A DNA stretch of 64,000 nt. Source: Rheinheimera aquimaris. Its GTDB lineage: Bacteria > Pseudomonadota > Gammaproteobacteria > Enterobacterales > Alteromonadaceae. How positions within the stretch are numbered: the stretch's first letter is position 1; each line of letters begins with the position of its first letter. The translations under genes and the position numbers were made by a program. This document shows positions 10,604-49,312 of the stretch, piece after piece. Location: contig NZ_JAJAVQ010000002.1 in NCBI RefSeq assembly GCF_020531985.1, positions 186,001 to 250,000 of the forward strand, given 5' to 3'. Under the pieces are notes generated by a model. The model did not search any database, was not told where the DNA came from, and saw only the letters and a list, made by a program, of their open reading frames with translations.

Positions 10604-10620
10604 CTCCGGCAGGCAGAACA

Positions 10621-31296: not shown

Positions 31297-31917
31297 TCAG
31301 CCTGGCGCTTTAATATTGTTACGAATGCTACAAGGCGGTATTCCGTCGTCCTCGCACAATGTAATTTCTGTATCGTTGTTCTGATGAACAAGACACAGCA
31401 TGTAGCCTGGCAGAGGAAAATGTTTATGCCGGATCTTGCCAGATATGCCATGGCGTAATACTCCAAGCAAGGCGTTGCCACTATACTTGCTATATGCTTC
31501 GGCTAGTGTCCACTGTTGGTAGAAAGTATTCAGGTCCGGTGCATGTTGTAAGGCAGTGTGGCCTTGCTGCAATTGCTTAAACTGTCTTGGTTTTATTTGC
31601 TCGATATCCAGACCGATTTTTTCATTAACACTGATTGCTGCGGCAATAGCTTCTTTTGAATGAGAGAGAGACAAATACCAGTGCTTCACGCCGACTATTA
31701 ATGTTGGAGCCTTGTCTGATGGCAATGATATGGCAATATCATTAGTACCTGTTGCTTGAATGTGTTGCAGCATTTTTCTTACTAATGCCCTGCCATTACA
31801 AAATTGTCTGGCTCTTTTTTCACTTAATGTCTGCGCATATTGCCATTCGGTATCTGTCAGCCAGCTTTGGCAATGCAGTGGTGATAACATTTTCAGGCGA
31901 TAATTAAGCCAAATCAT
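31297..31917 (-). CDS. 4'-Phosphopantetheinyl transferase of the APE cluster
   Basis: 206 residues, Sfp/AcpT-type. Diagnostic motifs: IGLDIE at 101-106 (Mg-binding D and E) and WTLAEAYSK at 136-144 (W-x3-EA-x2-K). It attaches phosphopantetheine from CoA to acyl carrier proteins; the natural targets are the two ACPs at 33.5 and 33.8 kb. It diverges from the cluster and shares its promoter region at 31918-32031. The sequence is somewhat richer in A+T than the cluster genes. Role by analogy with ApeB-type enzymes of APE loci. Confidence 0.88.
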   Translation of the reverse strand: MIWLNYRLKMLSPLHCQSWLTDTEWQYAQTLSEKRARQFCNGRALVRKMLQHIQATGTNDIAISLPSDKAPTLIVGVKHWYLSLSHSKEAIAAAISVNEKIGLDIEQIKPRQFKQLQQGHTALQHAPDLNTFYQQWTLAEAYSKYSGNALLGVLRHGISGKIRHKHFPLPGYMLCLVHQNNDTEITLCEDDGIPPCSIRNNIKAPG

Positions 31918-31957
31918 TTGCTTAGAATTTTTGCCATGCCAAACTCCGGCATTTTAA

Positions 31958-31987
31958 TTTACTTTTGACGCTAACTTTATATATGAT
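31958..31987 (+). promoter_or_regulatory. Probable APE operon promoter
   Basis: TTTACT, 18-base spacer, TATGAT (31982-31987), 45 bases before the first cluster gene. It is the only good -10 in the short divergent gap. A GAAGG ribosome site follows at 32017. Confidence 0.5.
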
Positions 31988-32031
31988 ACCGCGCTTTCGC
32001 TACCGTTGTTTTCGGTGAAGGTAATGACTGC

Positions 32032-32715
32032 ATGGAACTGTTTATAAAATCCTGGGCAATGTGGATGCCGCCGAAACACAACGATGATACCTCGCTCTTT
32101 CCCGAGTTGAAACAAGTACCGGCAATAACCCGGCGTCGTCTGAGCAAACTGACCAAGCTGGCTTTTGATGTGGCGCTGCAGGCTGCTGAACAGCAGTGCG
32201 ATGAACCCTTACCCACTATCTTTGCGTCACGTCACGGTGATTTACACAAAACATTGATGTTATTGCAGCAGCTGGGTAATGGTGAAGAATTATCCCCATC
32301 GCAGTTTGCTCTGTCTGTACACAACGCGATCAGCGGTCAGTTTAGTATCTACAGCCAGAATCAGGCCGACAGTAATGCGATCGCAGCCGGTGCCGACAGC
32401 TTGCACTATGCCGTGCTTGATGCAGCTGCACGTTTTCGCGCTGAGCCCAAACTAAGTCAGCAACTGATTGTTTATGCCGATGAAGCAATACCTGAGCCTT
32501 ATCAGGCATTTTGTCAGGATCCTTCAACGTCGGTTGCGTTAGCGCTGTTATTGCACCGTACGCAGGGACAACCCGTGCACTTTACCCTGTGTGCTGACAA
32601 CGATTCAGAAGCAGAGCCGGACCAGGCAATAAAATTGTTGCCATTTTTGCAGCAGCAAAGCCAACAGCTGACACTTAGCGGAAACAAACGACGCTGGCAG
32701 TGGCAGCGGGTATAA
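32032..32715 (+). CDS. apeC: Ketosynthase-like chain length factor of the APE cluster
   Basis: 227 residues, matching the beta-ketoacyl synthase N-terminal-like proteins that open APE clusters. It keeps traces of the thiolase fold (PTIFASRHGDLHKTLMLLQQL, SPSQFALSVHNAISGQFSIYSQN, AIAAGADSLHYAVLDAAARF) but has no active-site cysteine (the equivalent stretch reads NAIAAGADS) and lacks the C-terminal histidine half. In characterised APE systems (Xenorhabdus, E. coli) ApeC pairs with the ketosynthase ApeO as a chain length factor. First gene of the operon; an ATG eight bases earlier is out of frame. Confidence 0.82.
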   Translation: MELFIKSWAMWMPPKHNDDTSLFPELKQVPAITRRRLSKLTKLAFDVALQAAEQQCDEPLPTIFASRHGDLHKTLMLLQQLGNGEELSPSQFALSVHNAISGQFSIYSQNQADSNAIAAGADSLHYAVLDAAARFRAEPKLSQQLIVYADEAIPEPYQAFCQDPSTSVALALLLHRTQGQPVHFTLCADNDSEAEPDQAIKLLPFLQQQSQQLTLSGNKRRWQWQRV

Positions 32716-32718
32716 CAG

Positions 32719-33504
32719 ATGCAAAAGCTGAATCACCTGTACCGTATTCTGGCGACCGGCCTGTGTTTTGTTGTGTTTGGTATCGGTGCTGTGCTGCTGT
32801 CTGCAACGGTATTGCCGTTGCAGCGCTTAGTTATTTCTGATCCAGAGCGGCGTAAACAAAGAGCGCGTTATATTGTCCATCAGACATTTCGCTTTTTTAT
32901 TAGCCTGATGCACTTTGTTCGGGTGTTTAATTTCGACTTCGCTGCAGCCTCAGTTCTGAAAAACGCGCGCGGCAGAATCATTATTGCTAATCACCCCAGT
33001 TTAATCGATGTGGTCGCCTTGATAGCGATGACACCACAAGCAGATTGTGTTGTTAAAGCACAGTTGTTCCGCAACCCCTTTATCCGCGGTGTAATTAACA
33101 GTACCGGTTATATCAGTAATTCTGATCCCGATAAGCTTTTGGATGATTGCGCTGCATCCTTGCACAAAGGCAATAACCTGATTATTTTCCCGGAGGGCAC
33201 CCGTAGTACCCCGGGTGAACCACTGGCATTTCAGCGCGGCGCAGCCAATATAGCGCTCAGGGCTAACCGGGGTTATCTGGCATTGTATATTCAATGTCAG
33301 CCCAGTACTCTGACCAAGCAGGAGCAATGGTATCAGGTACCAAACAGCAAACCGACTTTGGCTATCCGCTACCTGCGGGACATTCAGCTGACGGATGAGC
33401 TGCAGCAGAGTCAATCTCCTGCTCTTGCTGCCCGGCAGCTGACCAGGGAGCTACAACATTTTTATCAAAAGGCAGTGGACCAACATGGACTCTTTGAAAC
33501 TTGA
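32719..33504 (+). CDS. 1-Acyl-glycerol-3-phosphate-type acyltransferase of the APE cluster
   Basis: 261 residues, PlsC/LPLAT family. One N-terminal membrane segment (ATGLCFVVFGIGAVLLSATVLPL), then the catalytic IIIANHPSLIDVVALIA (H-x4-D) and the substrate motif LIIFPEGTRSTPGEPLAFQRGAANIAL. Inner-membrane acyltransferase that may transfer the aryl polyene chain or a fatty acyl chain to a lipid acceptor. Three bases after the previous stop; its end overlaps the first ACP by 20 bases. Confidence 0.88.
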   Translation: MQKLNHLYRILATGLCFVVFGIGAVLLSATVLPLQRLVISDPERRKQRARYIVHQTFRFFISLMHFVRVFNFDFAAASVLKNARGRIIIANHPSLIDVVALIAMTPQADCVVKAQLFRNPFIRGVINSTGYISNSDPDKLLDDCAASLHKGNNLIIFPEGTRSTPGEPLAFQRGAANIALRANRGYLALYIQCQPSTLTKQEQWYQVPNSKPTLAIRYLRDIQLTDELQQSQSPALAARQLTRELQHFYQKAVDQHGLFET

Positions 33505-33742
33505 ACTTAAACAGTTGATTATCAGTACTCTTGAGCTGGAAGATATTACACCGGACGATATCGATGACGATGCGCCGTTGTTTGTCGATGGCCTGGGCCT
33601 GGATTCAATAGACGCACTTGAGTTAGGGCAGGCACTAAAGAAACAGTACAATATTAAGCCTGACGCTGACTCGGAAAAGAATAAGCAACATTTTGCCAGC
33701 CTGAATACTCTGGCGCAGTATGTTAAGCAGCAACAGCAGTAA
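33485..33742 (+). CDS. apeE: Acyl carrier protein 1 of the APE cluster
   Basis: 85 residues, four-helix ACP with the phosphopantetheine serine in GLGLDSIDALELGQALKKQYN. Acidic N-terminal half (EDITPDDIDDDAPL). It starts within the end of the acyltransferase gene. In characterised APE systems two distinct ACPs carry the starter and the growing chain. The assignment as the first of the two is by gene order. Confidence 0.9.
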   Translation: MDSLKLELKQLIISTLELEDITPDDIDDDAPLFVDGLGLDSIDALELGQALKKQYNIKPDADSEKNKQHFASLNTLAQYVKQQQQ

Positions 33743-33754
33743 GCGGAGCTAACA

Positions 33755-34003
33755 ATGAAAACCCAGCAAGACGTATTTAATCTTCTGCAGCAATTAATGG
33801 TCAAAGAGTTTGAACTCGATGCCAGCCAAATTACACCCGATGCCAACTTATACGAAGATTTGGACCTGGATAGCATTGATGCAGTTGATCTGGTGGTAAA
33901 ACTGCGTGAAATCACCGGTAAGAAAATCGAGCCGGAAGCCTTTAAGTCTGTGCGCACGGTCAATGATGTCGTCAATGCTGTGTATGTATTAATCGAAGCC
34001 TGA
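33755..34003 (+). CDS. apeF: Acyl carrier protein 2 of the APE cluster
   Basis: 82 residues; attachment serine in DLDLDSIDAVDLVVKLREITG. Similar to, but clearly diverged from, ACP 1 (an MKTQQDVFNLLQQLMVKEFELD start replaces MDSLKLELKQLI). Ribosome site AAGCGGAG upstream. Ends in a TGATG overlap with the membrane protein gene, so coupled. Confidence 0.9.
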   Translation: MKTQQDVFNLLQQLMVKEFELDASQITPDANLYEDLDLDSIDAVDLVVKLREITGKKIEPEAFKSVRTVNDVVNAVYVLIEA

Positions 34004-34560
34004 TGCATTTCAGATCTGCACTTGAGATCAGCCTGAAATGTGCCCTGGTGCTTTACCCGCTGTATGTCTGGTGGGCAATGCACCATTGGCATCCGGCGGC
34101 GGCGTTGCTGCCGGTTGCCGGTATAGCGCTAATTAAATCTTTTATCAGTGGTACCGGAGCTGCAAGCCGGGGCTTTTTTCTGCTGACTTGTGCCGGCTTA
34201 TTGCTGGCAATGGGATTTGGACGGGCAGAACACGCCATGTTGTACTATCCAGTTTGGATGAACGCCGGTATGTTGTTGCTTTTTGCCGCGTCGCTTTGGT
34301 TTCCGCCAACGGTGATTGAACGGCTGGCGCGGCTGATGGAAGGTGAACTGGATCACCATGCTGTGGCCTACACCCGCAAGGTAACCCAGGTATGGTGTCT
34401 GTTTTTTCTGTTTAATGGTGCTGTCGCCTTTGCCACGGCCTGGTGGGGAGACTGGGATATCTGGGTGCTGTACAACGGGCTGATTTCGTACATTCTGATG
34501 GGTTTGCTGATGTTTATTGAATGGCAGGTGCGGCGAGTTGTTAAAGCAGCAAAGCGATAG
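34003..34560 (+). CDS. COG4648-type integral membrane protein of the APE cluster
   Basis: 185 residues, about five membrane segments (SLKCALVLYPLYVWWAM, ALLPVAGIALIKSFI, GFFLLTCAGLLLAMGF, YPVWMNAGMLLLFAASLWFPPTVIERLARL, VWCLFFLFNGAVAFATAWWGDWDIWVLYNGLISYILMGLLMFI split by loops). It corresponds to the membrane protein found between the ACPs and the AMP ligase in APE loci; function unknown. The next gene begins inside its end. Confidence 0.82.
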   Translation: MHFRSALEISLKCALVLYPLYVWWAMHHWHPAAALLPVAGIALIKSFISGTGAASRGFFLLTCAGLLLAMGFGRAEHAMLYYPVWMNAGMLLLFAASLWFPPTVIERLARLMEGELDHHAVAYTRKVTQVWCLFFLFNGAVAFATAWWGDWDIWVLYNGLISYILMGLLMFIEWQVRRVVKAAKR

Positions 34561-35872
34561 CTGGCAACTGGCGTGGCCGGATGCCAGCCGGCCTGTATTT
34601 ACCGATGGTGTCGCCGTAGTGACTGCTCAGCAGTGGCAACAGCAACTGCAGGCCGTTAAACGTTTTATCGCTATGCAACCCGGCGATACGGTGTTGCTGT
34701 ATCAGGCCGACCCGATACTATTTTCTGTCTGGTTTATCGCCTTGAGTCAGCTTGGCAAACATATCGTACTGGCACCAGACGGGCAGCCTGATACGCTGCA
34801 ACTTGCTGGCGCGCAGTGCGACTGGCAGGCGCCCCAAGCCGCTGTCAGGGCCGACACTGTTGCTTATCAGCCGCGGCTGTTGCTGCAAAACAGTTGTCGG
34901 GTCAGTTTCTTTACTTCTGGCTCCACTGGCCTGCCCAAATTGGTCACTAAACGCTTGTCACAATTACTGCTCGAAGTACAAACCTTGCAGCAGCAATTTG
35001 GTGTGGCATTAAGCGGGCAAACTCTGTTTGCTGCAACAGTGTCGTTTCAGCATATCTATGGTTTGCTGTTTCGTATGTTGTGGCCACTATGTTATGGCTT
35101 CACACAGCATCGCACACAGCTGAGTTATCTGGAGCAGTGGCAGGCGCTGCTGCAGCAGTATGATGTGGTGCTGGTTGCCAGCCCGGCGCATCTTGCCAGG
35201 TTTGATGATGTGGCGATTCTGGCACCTTATACCAGCCGGTGTCAGCGTATATTCAGCTCGGGCGGCCCGCTAAATGATGTTGTACCGCCGCGCTATGTTG
35301 CGGCGTTACAACAAGCCCCCACTGAAGTATTTGGTAGCACTGAAACCGGCGGCATTGCCTATCGTCAGCGTAATACAGCAGATGTTGGCTGGCAGGTATT
35401 TGATGGTGTGTCGGTAAGCCAGGGGCCAGAGCAGGCATTGCAGGTGAGCTCGGCTTATCTTGATAGCGCGGGTTGGTTTACCACGTCAGATCAGGTAGCG
35501 CTTGTGACAGAGCGCTCATTCAGGTTAATCGGCCGGCTGGACCGCATTGTGAAGATTGAAGAGAAACGCTTGTCGCTACCTGAGCTGGAACAATACTGCC
35601 TTAACAGCGTATTGGTAAGCCAGGTAGCTGCCGTGGTGCTGACAACAACAAAGCCCCAGCTGGCGCTGGCAATAGTGCTGAGTAATCAGGGCGAACAGCT
35701 ATTAAAACTGCACGGTAAACTGGTGCTGAATCAGCAAATAAAGCAGCATTTATTGCAGCGTTTTGAGCGGGTGTTGCTACCGAGAAAGTTTCGTTATGTG
35801 GCCAGCCTGCCATACAATCAACAAGGCAAGTTACCCAGGTCAGAATTGGAAGCACTTTTTGAGCATGACTAA
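34517..35872 (+). CDS. apeH: AMP-dependent aryl/acyl ligase of the APE cluster
   Basis: 451 residues if begun at TTG 34517; TTG 34538, with AGG 10 bases upstream, is an equally good start. ANL-fold adenylating enzyme: SFFTSGSTGLPKLVTKR binds ATP phosphates, VFGSTETGGI is the A5 motif, FTTSDQ and RLDRIVKIEEKRLSL follow, and the catalytic lysine is in YNQQGKLPRSEL. It activates the aromatic starter acid as an acyl-AMP and loads it onto an ACP. In this cluster the natural substrate is the product of the ammonia-lyase at 37.9 kb. Ends eight bases inside the dehydratase gene. Confidence 0.88.
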   Translation: MNGRCGELLKQQSDSWQLAWPDASRPVFTDGVAVVTAQQWQQQLQAVKRFIAMQPGDTVLLYQADPILFSVWFIALSQLGKHIVLAPDGQPDTLQLAGAQCDWQAPQAAVRADTVAYQPRLLLQNSCRVSFFTSGSTGLPKLVTKRLSQLLLEVQTLQQQFGVALSGQTLFAATVSFQHIYGLLFRMLWPLCYGFTQHRTQLSYLEQWQALLQQYDVVLVASPAHLARFDDVAILAPYTSRCQRIFSSGGPLNDVVPPRYVAALQQAPTEVFGSTETGGIAYRQRNTADVGWQVFDGVSVSQGPEQALQVSSAYLDSAGWFTTSDQVALVTERSFRLIGRLDRIVKIEEKRLSLPELEQYCLNSVLVSQVAAVVLTTTKPQLALAIVLSNQGEQLLKLHGKLVLNQQIKQHLLQRFERVLLPRKFRYVASLPYNQQGKLPRSELEALFEHD

Positions 35873-36212
35873 TTTATTTCCTGCAGTGCAGCTATTGCAG
35901 CACTGCGATAACAAAGTTGAGTTACAGCTGGATATCCGGGCCGACATCGCCTACTTCGAAGGTCATTTCCCGAATGCGCCGGTATTGGCGGGTGTGACTC
36001 AGCTGCATTGGGTGGTGCAGTACTGTAAACAGTATTTTCCGCAACTGGCAGCTGTTAGCAGCGTTGAAGTGCTGAAGTTTCAGTTGATGATCCGGCCAAA
36101 CGACAGCTTAACTTTGTTGCTGGAGCGCACGGCTGATGCAACAGTGCTGTTTAGTTATAGCCGTGAGGGTAGCAAAGTCGCGTCTGGTCGGCTGAAATGG
36201 ACGCTGGCGTAG
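35865..36212 (+). CDS. apeI: 3-Hydroxyacyl-ACP dehydratase (hot-dog fold) of the APE cluster
   Basis: 115 residues from ATG 35865, in the overlap with the ligase gene; the open frame extends further upstream but only inside that gene. FabA/FabZ-like: FEGHFPNAPVLAGVTQLHWVV contains the catalytic H of GHFP. It lacks the acidic partner helix of a full FabZ, as expected for ApeI-type subunits, which form a heterodimeric dehydratase with ApeP (45.7 kb). Dehydrates beta-hydroxy intermediates to build conjugated double bonds. Confidence 0.85.
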   Translation: MTNLFPAVQLLQHCDNKVELQLDIRADIAYFEGHFPNAPVLAGVTQLHWVVQYCKQYFPQLAAVSSVEVLKFQLMIRPNDSLTLLLERTADATVLFSYSREGSKVASGRLKWTLA

Positions 36213-36213
36213 T

Positions 36214-36960
36214 ATGAACTGCTGTTTTCTGATCCCGATATATAACCACCATGAAACCATTGCTGCTACGGTGCAGCAACTGCTGCCGTTTGGCTTTGCC
36301 GTTATTATTGCCGATGATGGCTCAGATGCGGCAACAAAAGCTGTGCTGGCTGAGTTGGCGCAAAGATACGCACAGGTAGAGATTATTACCCTGCCACAAA
36401 ACGGCGGCAAAGGCGCAGCTATGTGCGCTGCTATGTTAAGGGCGCATCAGCTGGGGTTTAGCCACGGTTTGCAGATAGATGCTGATGGGCAGCACGATGT
36501 TGCCGATGTCCCTAAGTTCTGGCAGGCAGCAGCGAAGTGTCCTGCAGCGCTTATCAGCGGTGCGCCGGTATATGACAGTTCTATGCCGCTGGGGCGGAAG
36601 ATTGGCCGCGAGATCACCCATTTCTGGGTACGGATTGAAACGCTATCATTACAAATCAAAGACTCCATGCTGGGGTTTCGGGTTTACCCACTGCAAAGCT
36701 GTGTTGATATTATTCAAACGCACCGCATTGGCCAGAGGATGGATTTTGATATCGAAATTATGGTGCGGCTGTTCTGGCATGGTGTGCCGGTGCAGTTTCT
36801 GCCGACCAAGGTGATTTATCCTGTGGGCGGCCGCTCGCATTTTAATATGCTGAAAGACAACTGGCTGATCAGCAAAATGCATACCCGGTTGTTTTTTGGC
36901 ATGTTATGGCGGTTGCCCGGATTGTTGAAACGTCATTGGCAAGTAAAGTATGAAAACTGA
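36214..36960 (+). CDS. Family 2 glycosyltransferase of the APE cluster
   Basis: 248 residues, GT-A fold: CCFLIPIYNHHETIAATVQQLL, VIIADDGSDAATKAVL, GGKGAAMCAAML and the metal-binding LQIDADGQHD. No membrane segment except perhaps the C-terminal hydrophobic part near residue 230. Likely adds a sugar to the polyene or its lipid carrier at the cytoplasmic face. Starts one base after the dehydratase stop and overlaps the next gene by 11 bases. Confidence 0.88.
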   Translation: MNCCFLIPIYNHHETIAATVQQLLPFGFAVIIADDGSDAATKAVLAELAQRYAQVEIITLPQNGGKGAAMCAAMLRAHQLGFSHGLQIDADGQHDVADVPKFWQAAAKCPAALISGAPVYDSSMPLGRKIGREITHFWVRIETLSLQIKDSMLGFRVYPLQSCVDIIQTHRIGQRMDFDIEIMVRLFWHGVPVQFLPTKVIYPVGGRSHFNMLKDNWLISKMHTRLFFGMLWRLPGLLKRHWQVKYEN

Positions 36961-37933
36961 TAGCGGACACTGGGCAACCAAGCAGGAAAACGGCAGCTAT
37001 CATGCTATCCGGCTGTTACTACTGTTATACCGCTTTGGCGGCAAATGGCTGATTATGATAAGCCTTGCGCCTGTGCTGGCCTATTTTTTTGTTAAAGACG
37101 GTAGTGCCCGTCGTGCTTCACTGCAGTTTTTGCAACAGTTGCACCGCTTTAAAGCTGAGCAGAGCCCTTTTAAACAGAAGCCCGGTTACTGGCTGAGCTA
37201 TCAGCATTTCTGGCATTTTGCGTTGGCTGCACTGGCGAAAATAGACAGCTGGCTTGGCCGCATTGCGCAGGACAGTGTGGTGTATGGCGGCAGTGCAACA
37301 TTTGAACAGATCAGGCAATCGGGTAAAGGCGCCATACTGATTGGCAGCCATTTGGGAAATATTGAAGTTTGCCGGGCGTTGGTGCAAACCAAATACCCGG
37401 TAAGGATAAACATTCTGGCGCACACCAAGCATACGGCAGCTTTTAACCGTATTTTGAAAGAGAGTAACAGTGCAGTTGATCTGAACCTGATTGAAGTAAC
37501 AGAGCTGACACCCGCGGTAAGTGTGATGCTGAGTGAGTGTATTGAACGCAATGAACTGGTGGTGATTGTTGGCGATCGTATTTCGGCACAAGCGCCTGAG
37601 CGCGCGGTCTGGGCTGAGTTTCTCGGCAAGCCTGCGCCCTTTGCAGTCGGGCCCTGGATACTGGCCAGCTTGCTGCAATGCCCGGTTTACCTGATGTTTT
37701 GCATGAAGCAAACCGGTGGTTATAACCTGATGTTTGAACCCTTCGCTGAGCAACTGCGTTTACCGCGTAAACAGCGGCAACAGGTATTAACACAAGTGGT
37801 GCAGCGTTACGCCGCTGAGCTTGAGCGAGTAGCCTGCCAATACCCGCTACAATGGTTTAATTTTTACGATTTCTGGCAATTGCCCCTAACGACACAACAA
37901 AAGGAACACCGTGGTGAACACAGCAGTAACTGA
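36950..37933 (+). CDS. LpxL/HtrB-type lysophospholipid acyltransferase of the APE cluster
   Basis: 327 residues of the lipid A acyltransferase (LABLAT) family: N-terminal membrane segment (LLLYRFGGKWLIMISLAPVLAYFFV), then GAILIGSHLGNIEVCRAL with the catalytic H-x4-E, ELVVIVGDRISAQAPER and a C-terminal basic/aromatic stretch. Such enzymes acylate lipid head groups at the inner membrane. Together with the glycosyltransferase it implies a glycosylated, acylated aryl-polyene lipid. Its last 23 bases overlap the ammonia-lyase gene. Confidence 0.87.
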   Translation: MKTDSGHWATKQENGSYHAIRLLLLLYRFGGKWLIMISLAPVLAYFFVKDGSARRASLQFLQQLHRFKAEQSPFKQKPGYWLSYQHFWHFALAALAKIDSWLGRIAQDSVVYGGSATFEQIRQSGKGAILIGSHLGNIEVCRALVQTKYPVRINILAHTKHTAAFNRILKESNSAVDLNLIEVTELTPAVSVMLSECIERNELVVIVGDRISAQAPERAVWAEFLGKPAPFAVGPWILASLLQCPVYLMFCMKQTGGYNLMFEPFAEQLRLPRKQRQQVLTQVVQRYAAELERVACQYPLQWFNFYDFWQLPLTTQQKEHRGEHSSN

Positions 37934-39506
37934 GCCGGTTAAGTCTACTTTGTCAGGCCCTGTTGCCTTTGGCTGCGGCTGGATCAGTATTGAGCAAATC
38001 AACGCTATTGCACAGCAGCAGTTACAGGTTGTGTTAAGCGACAACCCTCAGTTTCAGCAGCAGATAGACGCTGGCGTAGCTTTTCTGGATAAATTACTGC
38101 AGGAAGACGGTGTGATTTACGGTGTCACCACCGGCTATGGCGACAGCTGTACCGTTAAGGTGCCGCTGTCTCAGGTGCATGAATTGCCCATTCATTTAAC
38201 CCGGTTTCACGGCTGTGGCCTGGGTGAGTATTTCAGCCCCGAGCAGGGTCGCGCTATTCTGGCAACCAGGTTGTGTTCTTTGACGCAGGGTTACTCCGGT
38301 GTCAGTTGGCCTTTGCTGCGCCAGTTAGCCGCATATTTAAACCATGACATAGTGCCACGTATCCCGCAGGAAGGCAGTGTCGGCGCCAGCGGCGATTTAA
38401 CGCCGTTATCTTATGTGGCTGCCAGTTTAATTGGTGAGCGTGATGTGTATCACAAAGGTGATATTCGCCAGGTTGCTGATGTACTGCCTGAACATGGCCT
38501 GACGCCCATCCGGCTGCGGCCAAAAGAAGGTCTGGCGATTATGAACGGCACTGCCGTCATGACGGCGCTGGCATGTTTGGCGTATCAACGCGCAGAATAT
38601 CTTACCCGCTTATCCAGCCGCATTACGGCACTGGCGAGTTTGGCACTGAAAGGCAACAGCAACCACTTTGATGACATCTTGTTCAGCGTGAAACCGCACC
38701 CGGGGCAAAACGAGGTGGCTGGCTGGATCAGGCATGATTTAAATCATCATGAACATCCGCGTAATTCAGACCGGCTGCAGGACCGATATTCGATTCGCTG
38801 TGCACCGCATATTATTGGTGTGCTGCGGGATGCTTTGCCATGGTTTAAGCAAACTATCGAAAATGAGTTAAACAGCGCTAACGATAACCCTATTATCGAT
38901 GGTATTGGTGAGCACGTATTACACGGCGGCCATTTTTACGGCGGCCACATTGCGATGGTAATGGACAGCATGAAAGCCGCTGTGGCAAACCTGGCTGATT
39001 TACATGACAGGCAAATGGCGTTGTTGATGGACACTAAATATAACAACGGCTTACCGTCTAATTTATCTGGCGCTGCGCCAGAGCGGCGTTACATTAACCA
39101 TGGTTTTAAAGCGGTGCAGATTGGTTGCAGTGCCTGGACAGCTGAAGCACTGAAGCTAACGATGCCTGCCAGTGTATTTTCGCGTTCCACAGAGTGCCAC
39201 AATCAGGACAAAGTCAGTATGGGCACTATAGCCGCGCGCGATTGTTTGCGCGTGCTGCAACTGACCGAACAGGTAGTGGCGGCGTCATTGCTGGCGGTAC
39301 AGCAGGGGGTGCAACTTCGTATCGCCCAGGGTGAATTGACCGCTTCAAGCCTGAGCAATGATATTCAGCAGATGTTAACCAGCCTGCAGCAGGATTATCC
39401 GTTATTGCAGGAAGACAGGCCGCTGGAGACCAGCTTGCGCCAGTTAATTGCGCAAATTCAGCAACAACACTGGCCGCTGTATCAGGAGCATACCGATGCC
39501 AAATAA
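37911..39506 (+). CDS. MIO-type aromatic amino acid ammonia-lyase (HAL/PAL/TAL family)
   Basis: 531 residues from GTG 37911 (AAGGAACACC upstream; GTG 37914 is an alternative). The MIO cofactor triad Ala159-Ser160-Gly161 is in VGASGDLTPLSYVA, catalytic Tyr70 in VIYGVTTGYG, and QDRYSIRCAPH and NSANDNPIID are present. The specificity pair (Ser-His in histidases, His-Leu in Rhodobacter tyrosine ammonia-lyase) reads Phe99-His100 in LTRFHGCG, so histidine is not the clear substrate. In APE and flexirubin clusters such lyases make a (hydroxy)cinnamate starter from Tyr or Phe. It stands between the lipid-tailoring and thioesterase genes and overlaps both. Confidence 0.9.
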   Translation: MVNTAVTEPVKSTLSGPVAFGCGWISIEQINAIAQQQLQVVLSDNPQFQQQIDAGVAFLDKLLQEDGVIYGVTTGYGDSCTVKVPLSQVHELPIHLTRFHGCGLGEYFSPEQGRAILATRLCSLTQGYSGVSWPLLRQLAAYLNHDIVPRIPQEGSVGASGDLTPLSYVAASLIGERDVYHKGDIRQVADVLPEHGLTPIRLRPKEGLAIMNGTAVMTALACLAYQRAEYLTRLSSRITALASLALKGNSNHFDDILFSVKPHPGQNEVAGWIRHDLNHHEHPRNSDRLQDRYSIRCAPHIIGVLRDALPWFKQTIENELNSANDNPIIDGIGEHVLHGGHFYGGHIAMVMDSMKAAVANLADLHDRQMALLMDTKYNNGLPSNLSGAAPERRYINHGFKAVQIGCSAWTAEALKLTMPASVFSRSTECHNQDKVSMGTIAARDCLRVLQLTEQVVAASLLAVQQGVQLRIAQGELTASSLSNDIQQMLTSLQQDYPLLQEDRPLETSLRQLIAQIQQQHWPLYQEHTDAK

Positions 39507-42727: not shown

Positions 42728-43955
42728 TGTGGTAATTATTGGTGCCGGTCCGGCGGGTAGCTGTGCCGGCGCTATGCTGGCCAAAGCCGGTAAGCAGGTG
42801 CTGTGTATTGAAAAACAGCATTTCCCCCGCTTTAGTATTGGCGAAAGTTTATTGCCGCATTGTATGGAGTTTCTGGCGCAGGCCGGTTTGGAAAATGCTC
42901 TGCGGCAACAGGCTGAAACATTGGGGTATCAGTTTAAAAATGGCGCTGCTTTTTTAAAAAATGGTGTGCACAGTCAGTTTGATTTCACTGATAAATTTAG
43001 CCCCGGCCCCGGCACAACCTTTCAGGTAAGACGGGCGTCGTTTGACAAGCTACTGGCCGATGAAGCACAAAAACAGGGCTTGCGGATCCATTATGGTATT
43101 AGCGTAACAGCCTTTGATAATACTGATCCGGCAACAGCAATACTGACGGTGCAGGATGAGCAGCAGCAAAGCAGTCAGATCAGTGCTGGCTTTGTACTTG
43201 ATGCCAGCGGTTTTGGTCGGGTATTACCGCGCTTACTGGATTTGGAGGTGCCGTCTGATTTTCCGGTGCGTCAGGCCTGTTTCTGTCATATCCGTGACGG
43301 TATTCGCGCGCAGAGTTTTGACCGCAATAAAATTTTGATCACTGTACATGATGAATACCCGGATGTCTGGTTCTGGTTGATCCCGTTTAGTGATGGTACC
43401 GCCAGCCTGGGTGTGGTGGGCAAAACCAGCCGTTTTAATGACGGCATCAGTGCTGCAGACAACTTATGGCAGCATGTAAAGCAAACCGGCGAGCTGGCAG
43501 CGTTGCTGGCAGAGGCAGAACCGATAAATACCGCACAAAGCCTGGTAGGCTATTCTGCCAATGTACGTCAGCTGTATGGCGACAACTTTGCGTTGCTGGG
43601 TAACGCCGGTGAGTTTCTCGACCCGGTGTTTTCGTCCGGTGTCACTATAGCGCTGCGCTCAGCCGCTACTGCTGTGCCGTTGGTATTACAGCAGCTAAAC
43701 GGCGAACAACCAGACTGGCAGCAGCAGTACAGTGTGCCGCTGCGTAAGGGTATTACCACCTTCCGCCGCTTTGTCGAAGCCTGGTACGATGGCCGGTTTC
43801 AGGACATTATTTTCAGCAAATCCCGCAATAGCACTATTACGGCGATGATTAGCGCCATACTGGCAGGGTACGCATGGGATGAGAAAAACCCCTATGTAGC
43901 AGAAACAGAGCGGCGTCTTAACGTGTTAAGGGAAGTATGTCTCGATTCAGTCTGA
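42705..43955 (+). CDS. FAD-dependent oxidoreductase with flavin-halogenase motifs, APE cluster
   Basis: 416 residues from GTG 42705. FAD loop GAGPAGSCAG at 13-22, PRFSIGESLLP at 41-51, and a Lys78 in FKNGAAF where the catalytic lysine of phenol/pyrrole halogenases sits. Two further motifs are present: WFWLIP (222-227; consensus W-x-W-x-I-P) and FLDPVFSSG (304-312; consensus F-x2-P-x2-S-x-G), the pattern used to separate halogenases from ordinary FAD hydroxylases. It needs reduced FAD from a separate reductase, none of which is in the cluster. Possible role: halogenation (or hydroxylation) of the aryl head. Activity is unproven; similar proteins occur in APE loci without known halogenated products. 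Confidence 0.83.
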   Translation: MKSVQHFDVVIIGAGPAGSCAGAMLAKAGKQVLCIEKQHFPRFSIGESLLPHCMEFLAQAGLENALRQQAETLGYQFKNGAAFLKNGVHSQFDFTDKFSPGPGTTFQVRRASFDKLLADEAQKQGLRIHYGISVTAFDNTDPATAILTVQDEQQQSSQISAGFVLDASGFGRVLPRLLDLEVPSDFPVRQACFCHIRDGIRAQSFDRNKILITVHDEYPDVWFWLIPFSDGTASLGVVGKTSRFNDGISAADNLWQHVKQTGELAALLAEAEPINTAQSLVGYSANVRQLYGDNFALLGNAGEFLDPVFSSGVTIALRSAATAVPLVLQQLNGEQPDWQQQYSVPLRKGITTFRRFVEAWYDGRFQDIIFSKSRNSTITAMISAILAGYAWDEKNPYVAETERRLNVLREVCLDSV

Positions 43956-44500
43956 TTTTTATTTTACTGCTGACAGGCTGCCAGTTACTGAGCGTTAAAC
44001 CCGATAGTCAGGTACCATTGGGTACGGGCTACTACCAGCTAAGCGATAGCTGGCCCGGCCCCGCACAGCAATTATTACAGCAGGCAAGCTGGAGTGATGG
44101 TACTGAGCAACATCAATTTACCATCAGCGCTTTACTGCGCTCTGATGTGACATTGCTGGTGGCGCTGTCACCAATGGGGCAAGAGCTGTGGCGCGTGCAG
44201 TACAAGCGCGGCCACCAATTGTCGGTTTCCGGTATAGCACCTTTTAATCAGCCGCAGTTTGCCAGGTTGTTACTGGCGCAAATGCAACTGGCTGTATTAG
44301 ATAGCGCGCAGCTGAGCGGCAGACTGCATGCGCTGAAGCTTGAACAAGACAGCAGCAGCCGGGTTGTGCTGGATGATAAGGGCAATACTGTACTGCAGAT
44401 AGCACAGCCACAGCAGCTTGGCCCTGGCCAGACTATAACCATTACAGCGACGGCTTACAGCCTGAAAATCACCACCTTACAGCAGGACTTTTTACCATGA
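43937..44500 (+). CDS. DUF3261 lipoprotein of the APE cluster
   Basis: 187 residues with a lipobox (SLIFILLLTGCQLLS, cysteine at residue 15), so outer- or inner-membrane anchored. Contains the DUF3261 pattern (GQELWRVQYKRGHQLSV near 90, LLLAQMQLAVLDSAQL). LolB-like in size and context: an outer-membrane lipoprotein that would receive the product from the LolA-like carrier. Starts 19 bases before the flavoprotein stop and ends ATGA-overlapped with the ketosynthase. Confidence 0.82.
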   Translation: MSRFSLIFILLLTGCQLLSVKPDSQVPLGTGYYQLSDSWPGPAQQLLQQASWSDGTEQHQFTISALLRSDVTLLVALSPMGQELWRVQYKRGHQLSVSGIAPFNQPQFARLLLAQMQLAVLDSAQLSGRLHALKLEQDSSSRVVLDDKGNTVLQIAQPQQLGPGQTITITATAYSLKITTLQQDFLP

Positions 44501-45681
44501 CCCCGACCACGCTAACGGCACTGGGTATTTGTTGTGCCCTGGGGCAATCGAAACAGCAGGTCTGGCAGAATGCTATCAGTGCCAGTCGCGCCGGTATGCA
44601 GTGGCGTAGCGACTTGTTGCAGTCTGGCGAGGCTATAGTGGTAGGACAAGTTGCTGGCCAGCTGCCGGATCTGTCGGCCTGGCCGGCGCAGTTTCAAAGC
44701 CGCAATAATCAGCTGGCGGCGCTGGCGTATCAGCAAATTGCTGCCGAGGTTGCAGCACTGCGCCAGCAGATGGGCAGTGACAGGATAGCGGTGATTATCG
44801 GCAGCAGTACGTCAGGTATTGCTGAGGGTGAGCAGGCGATGCAGCATTATGTGCAGCAGCAGCGCTTTCCGGCAGGTTTTCACTATCAGATGCAGGAGAT
44901 GATAGCGCCGGCGGAGTTTATTGCGCAGCTGGCTAATGTCAGCGGGCCTTGCTATGCCATTTCAACCGCGTGCTCTTCCAGCGCCAGAGCGCTGATGAGC
45001 GCGCGTAACTTAATACTAGCTGATATGGCAGACGCTGTTATTGTGGGCGGTGTCGACTCGCTGTGCCGCTTAACGCTAAATGGCTTTAAAGCGCTGGAGT
45101 CCGTATCTGCCGGCTTTTGCCAGCCTTTTAGTGTCAACCGTGACGGCATTAATATCGGTGAAGGTGCAGCACTGTTTGTCATGCAGAAACACCAGCCTGG
45201 CATTGCGTTGTTGGGCGCTGCAGCCTCTTCTGATGCGCATCATATGTCTGCACCTCATCCGCAGGGCCGCGGCGCGGTGGACGCTATTTTACGGGCATGC
45301 GAAGACGCTGCTATAAAACCGGCCCAGCTCGATTACATAAACCTGCATGGTACAGCAACACCTTTAAATGACAGCATGGAAAGTCAGGCGCTGGTGCAGC
45401 TGGCCTTAACGCAGGTTGCCGCCAGTTCCAGCAAAGCAATGACCGGCCATACACTTGGCGCCGCCGGGGCAATAGAAGCGGCGCTTTGCTGGCTTACATT
45501 GTCGCCTTATAATAGCGACAACCATTTGATCCCACATTGCTGGGATGAACAGCAAGACCCCGATTTACCTGCGTTGCAACTGGTGCAACCCAAACAGAGG
45601 CATAAGGTAACGCACTGCCTGTCTAACTCGTTTGCGTTTGGCGGTAATAACGTGGCATTAATATTAGGTAAAACGCTATGA
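44497..45681 (+). CDS. apeO: Beta-ketoacyl-ACP synthase (first KS) of the APE cluster
   Basis: 394 residues, FabB/F-type thiolase fold. Nucleophile Cys159 in AISTACSSSARAL, histidines in NLHGTATPLNDSMES and MTGHTLGAAGAIEAAL. The active site is complete, unlike the paired chain length factor at 32 kb. Carries out Claisen condensation with malonyl-ACP during polyene growth. Four-base overlaps at both ends place it in a coupled KS-DH-KR-KS block. Confidence 0.9.
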   Translation: MTPTTLTALGICCALGQSKQQVWQNAISASRAGMQWRSDLLQSGEAIVVGQVAGQLPDLSAWPAQFQSRNNQLAALAYQQIAAEVAALRQQMGSDRIAVIIGSSTSGIAEGEQAMQHYVQQQRFPAGFHYQMQEMIAPAEFIAQLANVSGPCYAISTACSSSARALMSARNLILADMADAVIVGGVDSLCRLTLNGFKALESVSAGFCQPFSVNRDGINIGEGAALFVMQKHQPGIALLGAAASSDAHHMSAPHPQGRGAVDAILRACEDAAIKPAQLDYINLHGTATPLNDSMESQALVQLALTQVAASSSKAMTGHTLGAAGAIEAALCWLTLSPYNSDNHLIPHCWDEQQDPDLPALQLVQPKQRHKVTHCLSNSFAFGGNNVALILGKTL

Positions 45682-46130
45682 TCACGGGTTACAGCATCGA
45701 GCAGGTATTGCCACACAGGTCACCGATGATTCTGCTGGATAATTTTATTGAAGCGGGTGCAGATTACGCTGTTTGCAAAGTAACGATCTCAGAGCACAGC
45801 CAGTTTTATGATGCCGCTAGTCAAACGGTACCCGCTTACGTTGGTATTGAATATATGGCACAAACGATTGCCGCCTATGCTGGTGCAAGTAATCTGGCCA
45901 AAGGCGGCGCGGTTAAAATTGGCTTTTTGCTTGGTTGTCGTAAGTATCAGCCAGAAGTAACCGCTTTTACGCTTGGTACCGAGCTGACTATTACCGCGAC
46001 GGAGCTGGTAACCGAAGATAATGGTTTAAGCGTGTTTGACTGCAGTATCATGCAGCAACAACAGTTATTAGTCAGCGCCAGATTAAATGTGTTTCAACCT
46101 GACAATCATCAGGCATGGCTAACGGAGTAG
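45678..46130 (+). CDS. apeP: 3-Hydroxyacyl-ACP dehydratase (second DH) of the APE cluster
   Basis: 150 residues. IEQVLPHRSPMILLDNFIEAG has the FabA/Z-type catalytic histidine and VGIEYMAQTIAAYAGAS the acidic partner helix (glutamate), so this is the catalytically more complete of the two dehydratase subunits. Probably pairs with the 115-residue subunit at 35.9 kb. Overlaps the preceding KS stop by four bases; its end lies two bases before the ketoreductase ATG. Confidence 0.88.
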   Translation: MITGYSIEQVLPHRSPMILLDNFIEAGADYAVCKVTISEHSQFYDAASQTVPAYVGIEYMAQTIAAYAGASNLAKGGAVKIGFLLGCRKYQPEVTAFTLGTELTITATELVTEDNGLSVFDCSIMQQQQLLVSARLNVFQPDNHQAWLTE

Positions 46131-46132
46131 TA

Positions 46133-46855
46133 ATGAAAAGAGTATTGGTCACAGGTTCTGGCCGTGGTATCGGAAAAGCCATTGCACTGCAACTGGCGGC
46201 ACAGGGTTTTGATATCGCCGTACATTGCCGTTCAGACCGCGCCAGCGCAGATGCGGTTGTTGCCGCCATCACTGCACTTGGCCGTCAGGCCAGTTTACTG
46301 CAGTTTGATGTCGCCGACCGCAGTGGTGCAAAAGCGGCGCTGGAGCAGGATATTGCGCAGCATGGTGCTTATTACGGTGTGGTATGCAACGCTGGCATTA
46401 CCCGTGACGGCGCTTTTCCTGCGCTGACTGAGCAGGACTGGGATCAGGTGATCCATACCAACCTTGACGGCTTTTATAATGTGTTGCACCCGGCGGTTAT
46501 GCCGATGATCCAGCTACGCAGTGGTGGCCGCATTGTCACTATTGCCTCAGTATCAGGTGTTGCCGGTAACCGTGGTCAGGTTAATTACAGCGCGTCAAAA
46601 GCAGGTTTAATCGGTGCTACCAAGGCGTTAGCGCTGGAACTGGCAAAGCGTAAAATCACGGTTAACTGCGTGGCGCCGGGCCTTATTGATACCGACATGG
46701 TGCAGGATATCGCCACTGAAGAGCTGATGAAAATGATCCCACTGCGACGTGCCGGCACGGCAGATGAGGTTGCAGCAACAGTGGCATTCTTATTTTCTGA
46801 ACCGGCGGCCTACATTACCCGGCAGGTTATCTCTGTAAACGGCGGGATGGTGTAA
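46133..46855 (+). CDS. apeQ: 3-Ketoacyl-ACP reductase of the APE cluster
   Basis: 240 residues from ATG 46133 (ACGGAG upstream; an ATG at 46115 is possible but lies before it). FabG-type SDR: VTGSGRGIGKAIALQL, VCNAGITRDGAFPAL, catalytic VNYSASKAGLIGATKALALEL, CVAPGLIDTDMV. Reduces beta-ketoacyl-ACP before dehydration. The stop overlaps the next ATG by one base. Confidence 0.93.
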   Translation: MKRVLVTGSGRGIGKAIALQLAAQGFDIAVHCRSDRASADAVVAAITALGRQASLLQFDVADRSGAKAALEQDIAQHGAYYGVVCNAGITRDGAFPALTEQDWDQVIHTNLDGFYNVLHPAVMPMIQLRSGGRIVTIASVSGVAGNRGQVNYSASKAGLIGATKALALELAKRKITVNCVAPGLIDTDMVQDIATEELMKMIPLRRAGTADEVAATVAFLFSEPAAYITRQVISVNGGMV

Positions 46856-48084
46856 TGAAGCGGGTGGTTGTCACAGGCATGTCGGTTATTACCGCACTGG
46901 GAGATTCCTGGGCTGATTTTAAGCAGCAGTTGTGTCAGGGGAAAAATGCCGTTCGTGTTATGCCGCAGTGGGATAAATTCAGCAGCATGAGCACCCGGCT
47001 TGCCGCGCCTGTTCAGCATTTTCAGCGGCCAGAGCATTACTCGCGTAAAATGGTGCGTTCAATGGGCCGGGTATCTCTGATGGCAACGCGCACCACTGAG
47101 CTGGCACTGGAGGCGGCAGGTTTGCTCGGCCATCCGGCGCTCAGCGATGGCCGCTGCGGTATAGCTTATGGCTCATCCACCGGCAGTACCGACCCTATTC
47201 TTGCCTTTGGCCGCATGATGGATACCGGTGATATGACCGGTGTCACGGCAACCAGTTATATTCAGATGATGGCGCATACTACAGCGGTAAACGTAGGGGT
47301 ATTTTTTGGTATAAAAGGCCGGGTCTATACCACCAGTTCGGCCTGTACATCCGGCTCGCAAGGTATTGGCTATGCCTATGAAGCCATAAAATACGGCAAG
47401 CAAACCCTGATGGTCGCCGGTGGCGCCGAAGAGTTGTGTGCCACCGAAGCCGCTGTTTTTGACACTTTGTATGCTACCAGTACTAAAAATGACACGCCGG
47501 ATTTAACCCCCCGGCCTTTTGATCAGGCCCGTGATGGTCTGGTAATCGGCGAAGGCGCCGGCACACTGATCCTGGAAGAACTGGAGCATGCGCTGGCGCG
47601 TGGCGCCACTATTTACGCCGAAGTAGTAGGTTTTGGCACTAACTCTGATGGGGTGCATGTTACCCAGCCGACAGACAGCACGATGGAAACTGCGATGCGT
47701 CTGGCACTGGACGATGCAGCCGTGACTGCGGCAGATATCGGCTACATCAATGCTCATGGCACAGCCACCGACAGAGGGGATGTTGCTGAGAGTCAGGCTA
47801 CAGCGCGGATATTTGGCAGTAACACGCCTATCAGTTCATTAAAAAGCTATCTGGGTCATACCCTGGGTGCCTGTGGTGCAATTGAAAGCTGGGCCAGCAT
47901 CCACATGATGCAGGACGACTGGTATGCGCCGACATTAAACCTGACGCAACCTGATATGGCCTGTGGCGAGCTGGATTATATTATGCAGCATGGGCGAGAG
48001 CTGCGGGCTGACTATGTGATGAGCAATAACTTCGCATTTGGCGGCATCAATACCTCACTGATTTTTAAACGGTGGCTTGGTTAA
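46855..48084 (+). CDS. apeR: Beta-ketoacyl-ACP synthase (second KS) of the APE cluster
   Basis: 409 residues. Cys164 in TSSACTSGSQGIGYAYEAIK, histidines in INAHGTATDRGDVAES and YLGHTLGACGAIES. Longer and more FabF/FabB-like than the first KS; the cluster thus has two full KS plus a CLF. In APE systems this KS is thought to handle initiation or extension separately from ApeO-ApeC. Preceded in operon by the ketoreductase; followed directly by the outer-membrane protein gene. Confidence 0.92.
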   Translation: MKRVVVTGMSVITALGDSWADFKQQLCQGKNAVRVMPQWDKFSSMSTRLAAPVQHFQRPEHYSRKMVRSMGRVSLMATRTTELALEAAGLLGHPALSDGRCGIAYGSSTGSTDPILAFGRMMDTGDMTGVTATSYIQMMAHTTAVNVGVFFGIKGRVYTTSSACTSGSQGIGYAYEAIKYGKQTLMVAGGAEELCATEAAVFDTLYATSTKNDTPDLTPRPFDQARDGLVIGEGAGTLILEELEHALARGATIYAEVVGFGTNSDGVHVTQPTDSTMETAMRLALDDAAVTAADIGYINAHGTATDRGDVAESQATARIFGSNTPISSLKSYLGHTLGACGAIESWASIHMMQDDWYAPTLNLTQPDMACGELDYIMQHGRELRADYVMSNNFAFGGINTSLIFKRWLG

Positions 48085-48888
48085 ATGCGGTTGATTGCGG
48101 CAGTAATGCTTTTGTGCCTTGGATTGGCAATCCCGGTATTAGCAGAGGACGTTTCGTGGCAGCTGGGGGCCGGAGTGGCATACAGCCAGCTACCTGATTA
48201 CCCGGGCGCCTCACAGCGGCAACATTATTTGCTGCCCTTTCCGTACTTTACCTACCGTAGTGACAAAATTACGCTTAACCGTTCAGAAGCCTTAGGTCAG
48301 CTTTTTGCCAATGGCAATTTTACGTTGAACCTCAGCCTGGCTGCGGCATTACCAGTGAATAGTGACGACAATGCTGCCCGGCAAGATATGCCAGATCTGC
48401 TGTGGTTGACGGAAATTGGGCCCACAGCCGATTATCAGCTATTTCAAAGCGACACCAGCCGGTTGCAGTTGAGGTTGCCTGTGCGCAAAGCAATTGCGAC
48501 CGATATTCAGCACTGGCAAGATGCCGGCTGGCGCGTTGAGCCGCAACTGCGCTGGCAGCAGAACTTAGTGAGCAATGTGCACTGGACCAGCCAATTCGCG
48601 ATAAACTGGAGTAACAAGCGCTACCACCAGTATCTGTATGGCGTGGCACCAGTTTATGCGACTGCTGAACGACCGCAATACGATGCCAGCTCCGGTTATG
48701 CCGGCTGGCGCTGGTCAAATGGCGTAACCTGGCAGCGCAAGCGTTGGTGGCTGGGCGCTTTTATTCGTTACGATAATTTGCAGGGGGCCAGCTTCGAGCA
48801 CAGCCCACTGCTGCAACGTGAACACAATGTCAGTTTTGGTGTAGCGCTGGCATGGATATTTAAACAACAAGGACATTACTATGAATAA
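48085..48888 (+). CDS. MipA/OmpV family outer-membrane protein
   Basis: 267 residues with signal peptide (LIAAVMLLCLGLAIPVLAE, cleavage after AE/EDV). Beta-barrel style alternation with aromatic turns (YPGASQRQHYLLPFPYFTYRSDKITLNR, VEPQLRWQQNLVSNVHWTSQFAINWSN, WWLGAFIRYDNLQGASFE) and a C-terminal hydrophobic strand (GVALAWIFK) match MipA/OmpV proteins. Immediately follows the second KS and overlaps the next gene by eight bases, so it is part of the APE operon, perhaps as the outer-membrane anchor or pore for the pigment. Confidence 0.8.
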   Translation: MRLIAAVMLLCLGLAIPVLAEDVSWQLGAGVAYSQLPDYPGASQRQHYLLPFPYFTYRSDKITLNRSEALGQLFANGNFTLNLSLAAALPVNSDDNAARQDMPDLLWLTEIGPTADYQLFQSDTSRLQLRLPVRKAIATDIQHWQDAGWRVEPQLRWQQNLVSNVHWTSQFAINWSNKRYHQYLYGVAPVYATAERPQYDASSGYAGWRWSNGVTWQRKRWWLGAFIRYDNLQGASFEHSPLLQREHNVSFGVALAWIFKQQGHYYE

Positions 48889-49312
48889 AGTTATGACGAT
48901 ACTGGCGTTATCTGCAGCTGTGATAAGTGGTGCAGCCCAGGCTCGTAACGATGTACTGACATTACCGCTGGACAGCATTATTGGCACTGAGAAAGCAAAA
49001 CAGGCGTTGCACGAAGTACCAGTGTACTTCGCTGGTCAGAACCACCCGGCCATCAGCAAAAACTGGGGCGAAGTATCAACCAGCCGGAAAACCAATGCTT
49101 TTGGTAAGTCAGACGAAGAAGCTTGCCAGTGGGTATTGTTGTCGGCATTAAAAGTGTTGCAGGAAGCAGCACAACAGCGTGGTTACGATGCGGTAGTGAA
49201 TATCCGTTCAAACTATCAGAATAAAGAATTTACCAGCGCAACTGAATTTCAGTGTGGCGCCGGCGCCATCATGGCCGGTGTGGCCTTGAAAGGTGATTTA
49301 GTTAAGTTCTGA
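48881..49312 (+). CDS. Small secreted protein at the end of the APE operon
   Basis: 143 residues with a signal peptide (KVMTILALSAAVISGAAQA). The mature part reads NDVLTLPLDSIIGTEKAKQAL, VPVYFAG, DEEACQWVLLSALKVLQEAAQQRGYDAVVNIRSNY, ATEFQCGAGAIMAGVALKG, similar to small periplasmic proteins often filed as 'excinuclease ATPase subunit' for no good reason; the GYDAVVNIR..GVALKG part resembles YbjQ-type heavy-metal-binding-like folds. It has two cysteines. No enzyme function can be stated. Followed by a terminator, so it is the last gene of the operon. Confidence 0.72.
   Translation: MNKVMTILALSAAVISGAAQARNDVLTLPLDSIIGTEKAKQALHEVPVYFAGQNHPAISKNWGEVSTSRKTNAFGKSDEEACQWVLLSALKVLQEAAQQRGYDAVVNIRSNYQNKEFTSATEFQCGAGAIMAGVALKGDLVKF

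Follow-up and report, generated by a model that had tools for sequence, protein, structure and literature searches.

The DNA analysed here, a 64-kb window (positions 186001-250000 of contig C9) of the 4.23-Mb genome of Rheinheimera aquimaris, carries at 31297-49312 a complete locus for an aryl polyene (APE) type II polyketide synthase (PKS) with genes for lipid attachment and export, the product being predicted from gene content. Aryl polyenes are yellow pigments of the outer membrane that occur in many Gram-negative bacteria. Among clusters of this known family the locus has a common form, a widespread subtype that has its own aromatic amino acid ammonia-lyase and its own flavin adenine dinucleotide (FAD) enzyme with halogenase-like motifs. 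As one more copy of this subtype, its value lies in the comparison with other loci, where the lyase and the FAD enzyme behave as separable modules, and where a new relationship appears. Sequence comparison suggests that the FAD enzyme and the ApeB-type methyltransferase are alternative enzymes for tailoring the aryl head, as no APE locus read has both and the two share a slot in three Colwellia loci. Colwellia strains that carry the methyltransferase and Rheinheimera or Shewanella strains that carry the FAD enzyme consequently form natural pairs for a direct test of the halogenase-like gene.

The cluster consists of a divergent 4'-phosphopantetheinyl transferase (PPTase) gene and 21 plus-strand genes with intergenic gaps of -44 to +12 bases, values that depend on the starts chosen for the first dehydratase (35865) and the thioesterase (39496). 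Pfam and NCBIfam scans together with similarity located the whole core set, namely the chain length factor (CLF), two acyl carrier proteins (ACPs), two ketosynthases (KSs), a ketoreductase (KR), two dehydratases and a ligase, along with the LolA-like, MMPL and DUF3261 export set, in which DUF3261 was assigned by Pfam and the other two by position and weak similarity. The divergent PPTase and coupled APE genes described in the initial annotation of this DNA were all recovered in this way. It saw no S-adenosylmethionine-dependent methyltransferase, and a search with the E. coli head methyltransferase ApeB gave no match genome-wide at E<=1e-25. Its interpretation of an APE locus with a dedicated lyase, a halogenase-like FAD enzyme and export genes likewise stands, with the exception that the lyase and FAD enzyme were thought to be 'added here'. 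That they are additions special to this locus is rejected, since both are usual in the APE clusters of Alteromonadales that the lyase search recovered, and both are present in an A. baumannii record.

The extent of the subtype was assessed in three sets of sequences. A search with the lyase against genome contigs returned 88 relatives, from which 80 named loci were kept, a set thus selected for possession of the lyase; the closest named relatives at this gene are from Rheinheimera (77-84% identity), together with two further gammaproteobacterial assemblies. Both APE ketosynthases are found in 77 of the 80 named loci (the exceptions under the cut used are L020, L046, and L080), the FAD enzyme in 72 of these 77, and one shared order of 17 genes in 62 of the 80, with conserved loci hosted by Rheinheimera, Shewanella, Pseudoalteromonas, Colwellia, Paraglaciecola, and other genera. 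A Pseudoalteromonas replicon region is a near gene-for-gene match to the window cluster. In a family sample of 147 genomes, scored at >=735 bits for the lyase clade and >=460 bits for the FAD enzyme (a 113-bit FAD-enzyme match in G013 was dropped), the FAD enzyme occurs in 29, the lyase in 32, and both in 26, and in all 26 the two genes lie on the same contig within ~5 kb of each other. Four of the six genomes of the window's genus in this sample, the window genome counted, have both. Furthermore, in a class sample of 369 genomes, all 16 genomes with the lyase clade (defined by E<=1e-90) belong to a group of 23 in which the CLF is matched at >=138 bits, a cut chosen after viewing the match list. 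Pairwise distances of the lyase, FAD enzyme, KR and both KSs, taken over the 69 loci with all five genes, correlate at r=0.91-0.96, as expected under inheritance of the whole cluster, although host kinship alone would likewise give high values.

The relationship between the FAD enzyme and the methyltransferase is seen most directly in the 77 named APE loci, where 72 have the FAD enzyme, three have an ApeB-like methyltransferase, none has both, and two have neither. In the three loci with the methyltransferase, all from Colwellia (L013, L015, and L019), the gene lies between those for MMPL and the first KS, the slot of the FAD enzyme. One of the two loci with neither, L034, lies on a contig equal in length to G003:C2, in which a methyltransferase is found 3' of the MipA gene and the small open reading frame (ORF), beyond the fetched flank. 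No ApeB-like match was found in L085 and L087-L089, which have the FAD enzyme without the lyase, or in the A. baumannii and Pseudoalteromonas regions, and the two genomes of the family sample with a methyltransferase (G003 and G122, of 147) both lack the FAD enzyme. In the 23 class genomes that reach the CLF cut of >=138 bits, the FAD enzyme occurs in 15, the methyltransferase in seven, and both in one, where 4.6 would be expected (p=0.0017). In 14 of the 15, the genes for the FAD enzyme and the CLF are no more than ~12 kb apart, the outlier being G394 at 64 kb. The methyltransferase shares a contig with the CLF gene in three of the seven and with the lyase in two more.

A number of observations weigh against this alternation. 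The APE loci of L025 and G109 have neither enzyme, and G307 carries both in one genome, on different contigs. Over all 86 genomes with a CLF match the FAD enzyme is present in 17, the methyltransferase in 15, and both in one, against 3.0 expected, which is not significant (p=0.15). All of these p-values are rough, because few candidates were scored per genome, assemblies are fragmented, and the genomes are related. Finally, Azoarcus has both genes, in two loci, and a product that is methylated and non-brominated (available text of PMC3949708), so exclusivity is not a strict rule.

Taken as a whole, the locus is probably best explained as an APE pigment locus of the widespread subtype, operating by a pathway in which the cluster's lyase would first form 4-coumarate by deaminating an aromatic amino acid, L-tyrosine being the likeliest. 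The ApeH-like ligase would load 4-coumarate on an ACP, by analogy with ApeH, which loads 4-hydroxybenzoate, and the starter would be elongated to a polyene by ApeO-CLF, ApeR, ApeQ, and the two dehydratases, as is known for the family. As the swap with the methyltransferase suggests, the FAD enzyme may modify the aryl head, perhaps beside the phenol, as an alternative to methylation by ApeB, with halogenation the likeliest reaction by motif. The thioesterase, glycosyltransferase, and two acyltransferases would join the polyene to a lipid, and the MMPL, LolA-like, and DUF3261 proteins would carry the product to the outer membrane, following the family model in the available part of PMC8253772. 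No published test of either enzyme from this APE subtype was found in the literature, which was covered in part, and such work may exist.

The lyase (37911-39506, plus strand) belongs to the MIO (4-methylideneimidazol-5-one) family, as it has the MIO-forming Ala-Ser-Gly triad and a PF00221 match of 532 bits. Its selectivity residues are F99-H100, as compared to H-L in the tyrosine ammonia-lyase (TAL) of R. sphaeroides (2o6y), whose pair it therefore lacks, F-L in 2o78, which we take to be the H89F variant of that enzyme with phenylalanine ammonia-lyase (PAL)-like activity, and S-H in the tyrosine aminomutase 2ohy. The QED motif of histidine ammonia-lyase (HAL) is also absent: the two motifs are TH and QEDHVSMG in the HutH encoded by this genome but FH and NQDKVSMG in the cluster lyase, and the latter combination is found in 80 of 82 loci, window included, the other two being HutH itself and one incomplete reading. 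NCBIfam gives no decision on class, because the scores for the top-ranking model, the BagA/FevW tyrosine lyase (402 bits, cut-off 1000), and for two histidine lyase models (396 bits against a cut-off of 524 and, for the hutH equivalog, 387 bits against 539) are close and all under cut-off; the FlxA model scores 344 bits (cut-off 700). From its motifs we take the cluster lyase to be of TAL/PAL type, not a histidine lyase.

Which starter the lyase supplies is less easily decided. F99 is a PAL-type residue, shared with chain 2o78, and leaves phenylalanine as a candidate substrate, in which case the starter would be cinnamate and the head an unsubstituted phenyl group. UbiC is also encoded in the genome, so that 4-hydroxybenzoate is available, as in E. 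coli (available part of PMC8253772), and could be the starter with the lyase as an accessory, an arrangement favored by the four APE loci (L085, L087, L088, and L089) that have the FAD enzyme and no lyase. The first two of these observations, F99 and UbiC, count against the tyrosine-derived route. However, H100 matches the His of tyrosine aminomutase 2ohy, and flavin halogenases acting on phenols need a hydroxyl group, a requirement that counts against an unsubstituted head. Moreover, FlxA has a HAL-like first motif and is nonetheless a TAL with ~1000-fold preference for tyrosine (available text of PMC3992019), which leaves TAL activity compatible with F99-H100. A PAL-derived or UbiC-derived starter is accordingly regarded as unlikely, though a real contender. 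A hydroxycinnamoyl starter fits the precedents of flexirubin and of alterochromide, where AltA forms the coumarate starter from tyrosine and coumarate feeding restores production in an altA mutant (available text of PMC5577590). As a separate matter, the match of the ApeH-like ligase to the 4-coumarate ligase model TIGR02372 (86.6 bits, cut-off 334.7) was rejected as proof of a coumarate starter, because E. coli ApeH, with a predicted 4-hydroxybenzoate starter, scores about equally (75.1 bits). It is very improbable that the lyase serves another purpose altogether, for instance the supply of free coumarate to a photoreceptor, and came to its place in the operon by chance. Such a role would accord with lyases of the same clade without APE genes in the stretches read, which were found in three of the 32 lyase-bearing family genomes (L092, L094, and L095) and in Photobacterium (L080), and with the position of the L095 lyase directly 3' of two DNA photolyase genes. 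Against it, the lyase gene of the window overlaps its neighbors by 23 and 11 bases, and the FAD enzyme lies within ~5 kb of the lyase in 26 of the 32 family genomes. Rather, FAD-enzyme APE loci without the lyase and lyases without nearby APE genes together point to the lyase as an optional starter module.

The orphan lyases at L094 (9522-11063), L095 (9808-11349), and L092 (8546-10144) belong to the same clade and are 64-71% identical; judging by ORF sizes alone, the L094 gene is probably also 3' of photolyase genes. The lyase of L080 (Photobacterium galatheae, 9977-11524) sits between an ABC exporter with an HlyD-type partner and lipopolysaccharide genes (LpxK, cytidylyltransferase). A crude motif scan of 10 loci and the window gave no credible match to suggest that the orphan lyases have a gene for photoactive yellow protein nearby.

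Flavin halogenases are recognized by GxGxxG, a catalytic Lys, WxWxIP, and FxDP..SSG. The FAD enzyme of the window (42705-43955, plus strand) has this full set, with GAGPAG, FPRFSIGES, K78, WFWLIP, and FLDPVFSSG, in line with the initial annotation, which noticed both halogenase motifs. All 73 of 73 relatives examined retain FPRFSIGES, Lys78, WxWxIP, and FLDP[VI]FSSG, as do L084-L089, and GxGxxG in 71 of the 73, the exceptions being one GAGPSA and one incomplete reading. The closest PDB match, 3nix (335 bits), is named only 'Flavoprotein/dehydrogenase' and is followed by the halogenases 8zop (155 bits) and CmlS (140 bits); CmlS halogenase is also the top NCBIfam profile, at 156 bits and well under the cut-off of 900 for a curated equivalog. 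The PF04820 match (85 bits) was rejected as proof of a halogenase, as the model fires in five of 14 control genomes, including E. coli and three archaea.

It is nearly, though not quite, an even prospect that the enzyme is not a halogenase and instead hydroxylates or otherwise oxidizes the head group or the polyene, leaving the pigment halogen-free. The 3nix match and the promiscuity of PF04820 lean this way, as do scores that pass no curated cut-off and a genome without any match to the flavin reductase family PF01613, the one reductase family searched for. In the same vein, arcA of Azoarcus is annotated as a halogenase and yet arcuflavin is non-brominated (available text of PMC3949708). Set against this are the strict retention of the hallmark residues and the first rank of CmlS, and a correlation from the xanthomonadin literature: the clusters of two Xanthomonas species have a halogenase gene and pigments of the genus carry up to two bromines, whereas the Lysobacter cluster is described without the gene and its pigment without a bromine pattern (available text of PMC3691225, a 2013 paper that also remarks on halogenase genes flanking the CLF-KS pair in several genomes). 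A halogenated head group is possible for the R. aquimaris pigment. The wider proposal, that the FAD enzyme of lyase-type APE clusters is a phenol halogenase in the tailoring role of ApeB, such that a sizeable fraction of proteobacterial aryl polyenes, that of A. baumannii included, would be halogenated at the head where that of E. coli is methylated, is offered tentatively, as something we would sooner expect to fail than to hold. Elsewhere in the genome are two full-length genes of the Trp_halogenase family, at C9:612188-613534 (minus strand, 624 bits) and C9:331738-333096 (plus strand, 620 bits).

Comparison with described systems places the locus closest to A. baumannii (L084, a region of CP035931), where the genes for CLF, acyltransferase, two ACPs, membrane protein, ligase, glycosyltransferase, acyltransferase, lyase, thioesterase, LolA, transporter, FAD oxidoreductase, DUF3261, KS, dehydratase, KR, KS, and a small ORF follow in the same order, with the lyase 59% and the FAD enzyme 53.5% identical to those of the window. 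The A. baumannii cluster differs in having its PPTase at the far end, in having no MipA gene listed, and in an ApeI-like dehydratase match within the ligase gene, a fusion. The record itself, CP035931.1, is a 1.02-Mb 'plasmid unnamed1' that carries hisS-, der-, bamB-, and holA-type genes and for that reason may be chromosomal DNA deposited under the name of a plasmid. The E. coli APE cluster (apeA-R; L083, strain D8) shares the core PKS, ligase, and export genes; unlike the window, it has ApeB, its ApeJ is one gene matching the separate glycosyltransferase and acyltransferase genes, and the stretch shown lacks the lyase, FAD enzyme, MipA, and PPTase. In flexirubin synthesis by Chitinophaga pinensis, an ammonia-lyase (the TAL FlxA) and a ligase (FlxY, a 4-coumarate-CoA ligase) likewise start an aryl polyene, but the host belongs to the Bacteroidota and the pigment is esterified with a dialkylresorcinol (available text of PMC3992019). 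The alterochromide (alt) system of Pseudoalteromonas piscicida uses a coumarate starter made by AltA, like the starter proposed here, and loses its brominated forms, in which bromine sits on the phenolic group, on deletion of altN, the likeness of AltA and AltN being one of description (available part of PMC5577590). It differs in producing a nonribosomal peptide synthetase lipopeptide with no KS-CLF in the account available (PMC8358021). Xanthomonadin (Xanthomonas) and arcuflavin (Azoarcus) also come from aryl polyene clusters with a halogenase gene, likened by description, without sequence alignment, and the Azoarcus cluster lists a MipA gene, arcC (PMC3691225 and PMC3949708, each as available in part); in both, the starter is derived from chorismate by XanB2. 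Among the loci read, the APE cluster L101 (5805-17219, G003:C2) has its KR and ApeR-like KS genes separated by nearly 10 kb. This insert encodes BtrH_N/DUF4872, a protein whose C-terminal domain is of KSIII type, and others, and it may represent a dialkylresorcinol module, making a flexirubin- or arcuflavin-like hybrid pigment possible.

The remaining genes of the cluster are assigned as follows, all on the plus strand except the divergent PPTase (31297..31917, minus strand), which has weak Pfam matches to 4PPT_N (26.4 bits, cut-off 27) and ACPS (25.2 bits, cut-off 25). The first of the 21 genes encodes a CLF-like protein of ApeC type (Ketoacyl-synt_2, 32032..32715), with the sole PF13723 match in the genome (197 bits), and is followed by an ApeD-like lysophospholipid-type acyltransferase (32719..33504; PF01553, 62 bits), the ApeE-like ACP 1 (33485..33742) and ApeF-like ACP 2 (33755..34003), both with PF00550 matches and 61% and 56% identical to their E. 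coli counterparts, and an ApeG-like membrane protein (34003..34560) that is without a Pfam match and 48% identical over part of the E. coli gene at the ApeG position. Next are the ApeH-like AMP-dependent acyl-ACP/CoA ligase (34517..35872; PF00501) and the ApeI-like dehydratase (35865..36212; PF22818, 52.7 bits), listed as an ORF from 35763 with the ATG at 35865 favored. The family 2 glycosyltransferase (36214..36960; PF00535) is 52% identical to the first part of E. coli ApeJ and the lipid A-type acyltransferase (36950..37933; PF03279, 44 bits) 39% identical to its later part. Beyond the lyase gene lie the ApeK-like thioesterase (39496..39921; PF13279, 48 bits; 50% to the E. coli counterpart), listed from 39448 with the ATG at 39496 favored, the LolA-like periplasmic carrier (39918..40454; ApeL-like), assigned from its place in the cluster and a weak resemblance to a relative annotated as LolA, and the ApeM-like MMPL/RND-type transporter (40451..42727), with a weak NCBIfam HpnN match of 29 bits and 28% identity to the E. 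coli MMPL gene, neither of the last two having a Pfam match. The FAD enzyme gene is followed by those for the ApeN-like DUF3261 lipoprotein (43937..44500; PF11659, 66 bits), the ApeO-like KS (44497..45681; PRK09185, 514 bits, above the cut-off of 407), the ApeP-like dehydratase (45678..46130; PF22817, 77 bits), the ApeQ-like KR (46115..46855; PF13561, 188 bits), and the ApeR-like KS (46855..48084; PRK09116, 744 bits, above the cut-off of 470), the last two each 63% identical to their E. coli counterparts. At the 3' end are two genes that the initial annotation left unnamed, encoding a MipA-family outer-membrane protein (48085..48888; PF06629, 134 bits), matched in 14 of 82 loci, and a small protein with a signal-like start by eye (48881..49312), without a Pfam match, which is matched in 11 of 82 loci and is 38% identical to its A. 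baumannii relative in the corresponding position, which is annotated as 'excinuclease'.

The 64-kb window contains no tRNA and no Rfam match at gathering score. Promoter-like sites show no excess (17, versus 18.0 in shuffles, sd 4.1), and terminator-like sites number 30, versus 23.7 in shuffles (sd 4.9). Adjoining the PPTase gene is one for a short catalase-family protein (30244-31224, minus strand; 326 aa; PF00199, 98.6 bits), whose start looks signal-like by eye and counterparts of which are found near the cluster in L005, L006, and L007.

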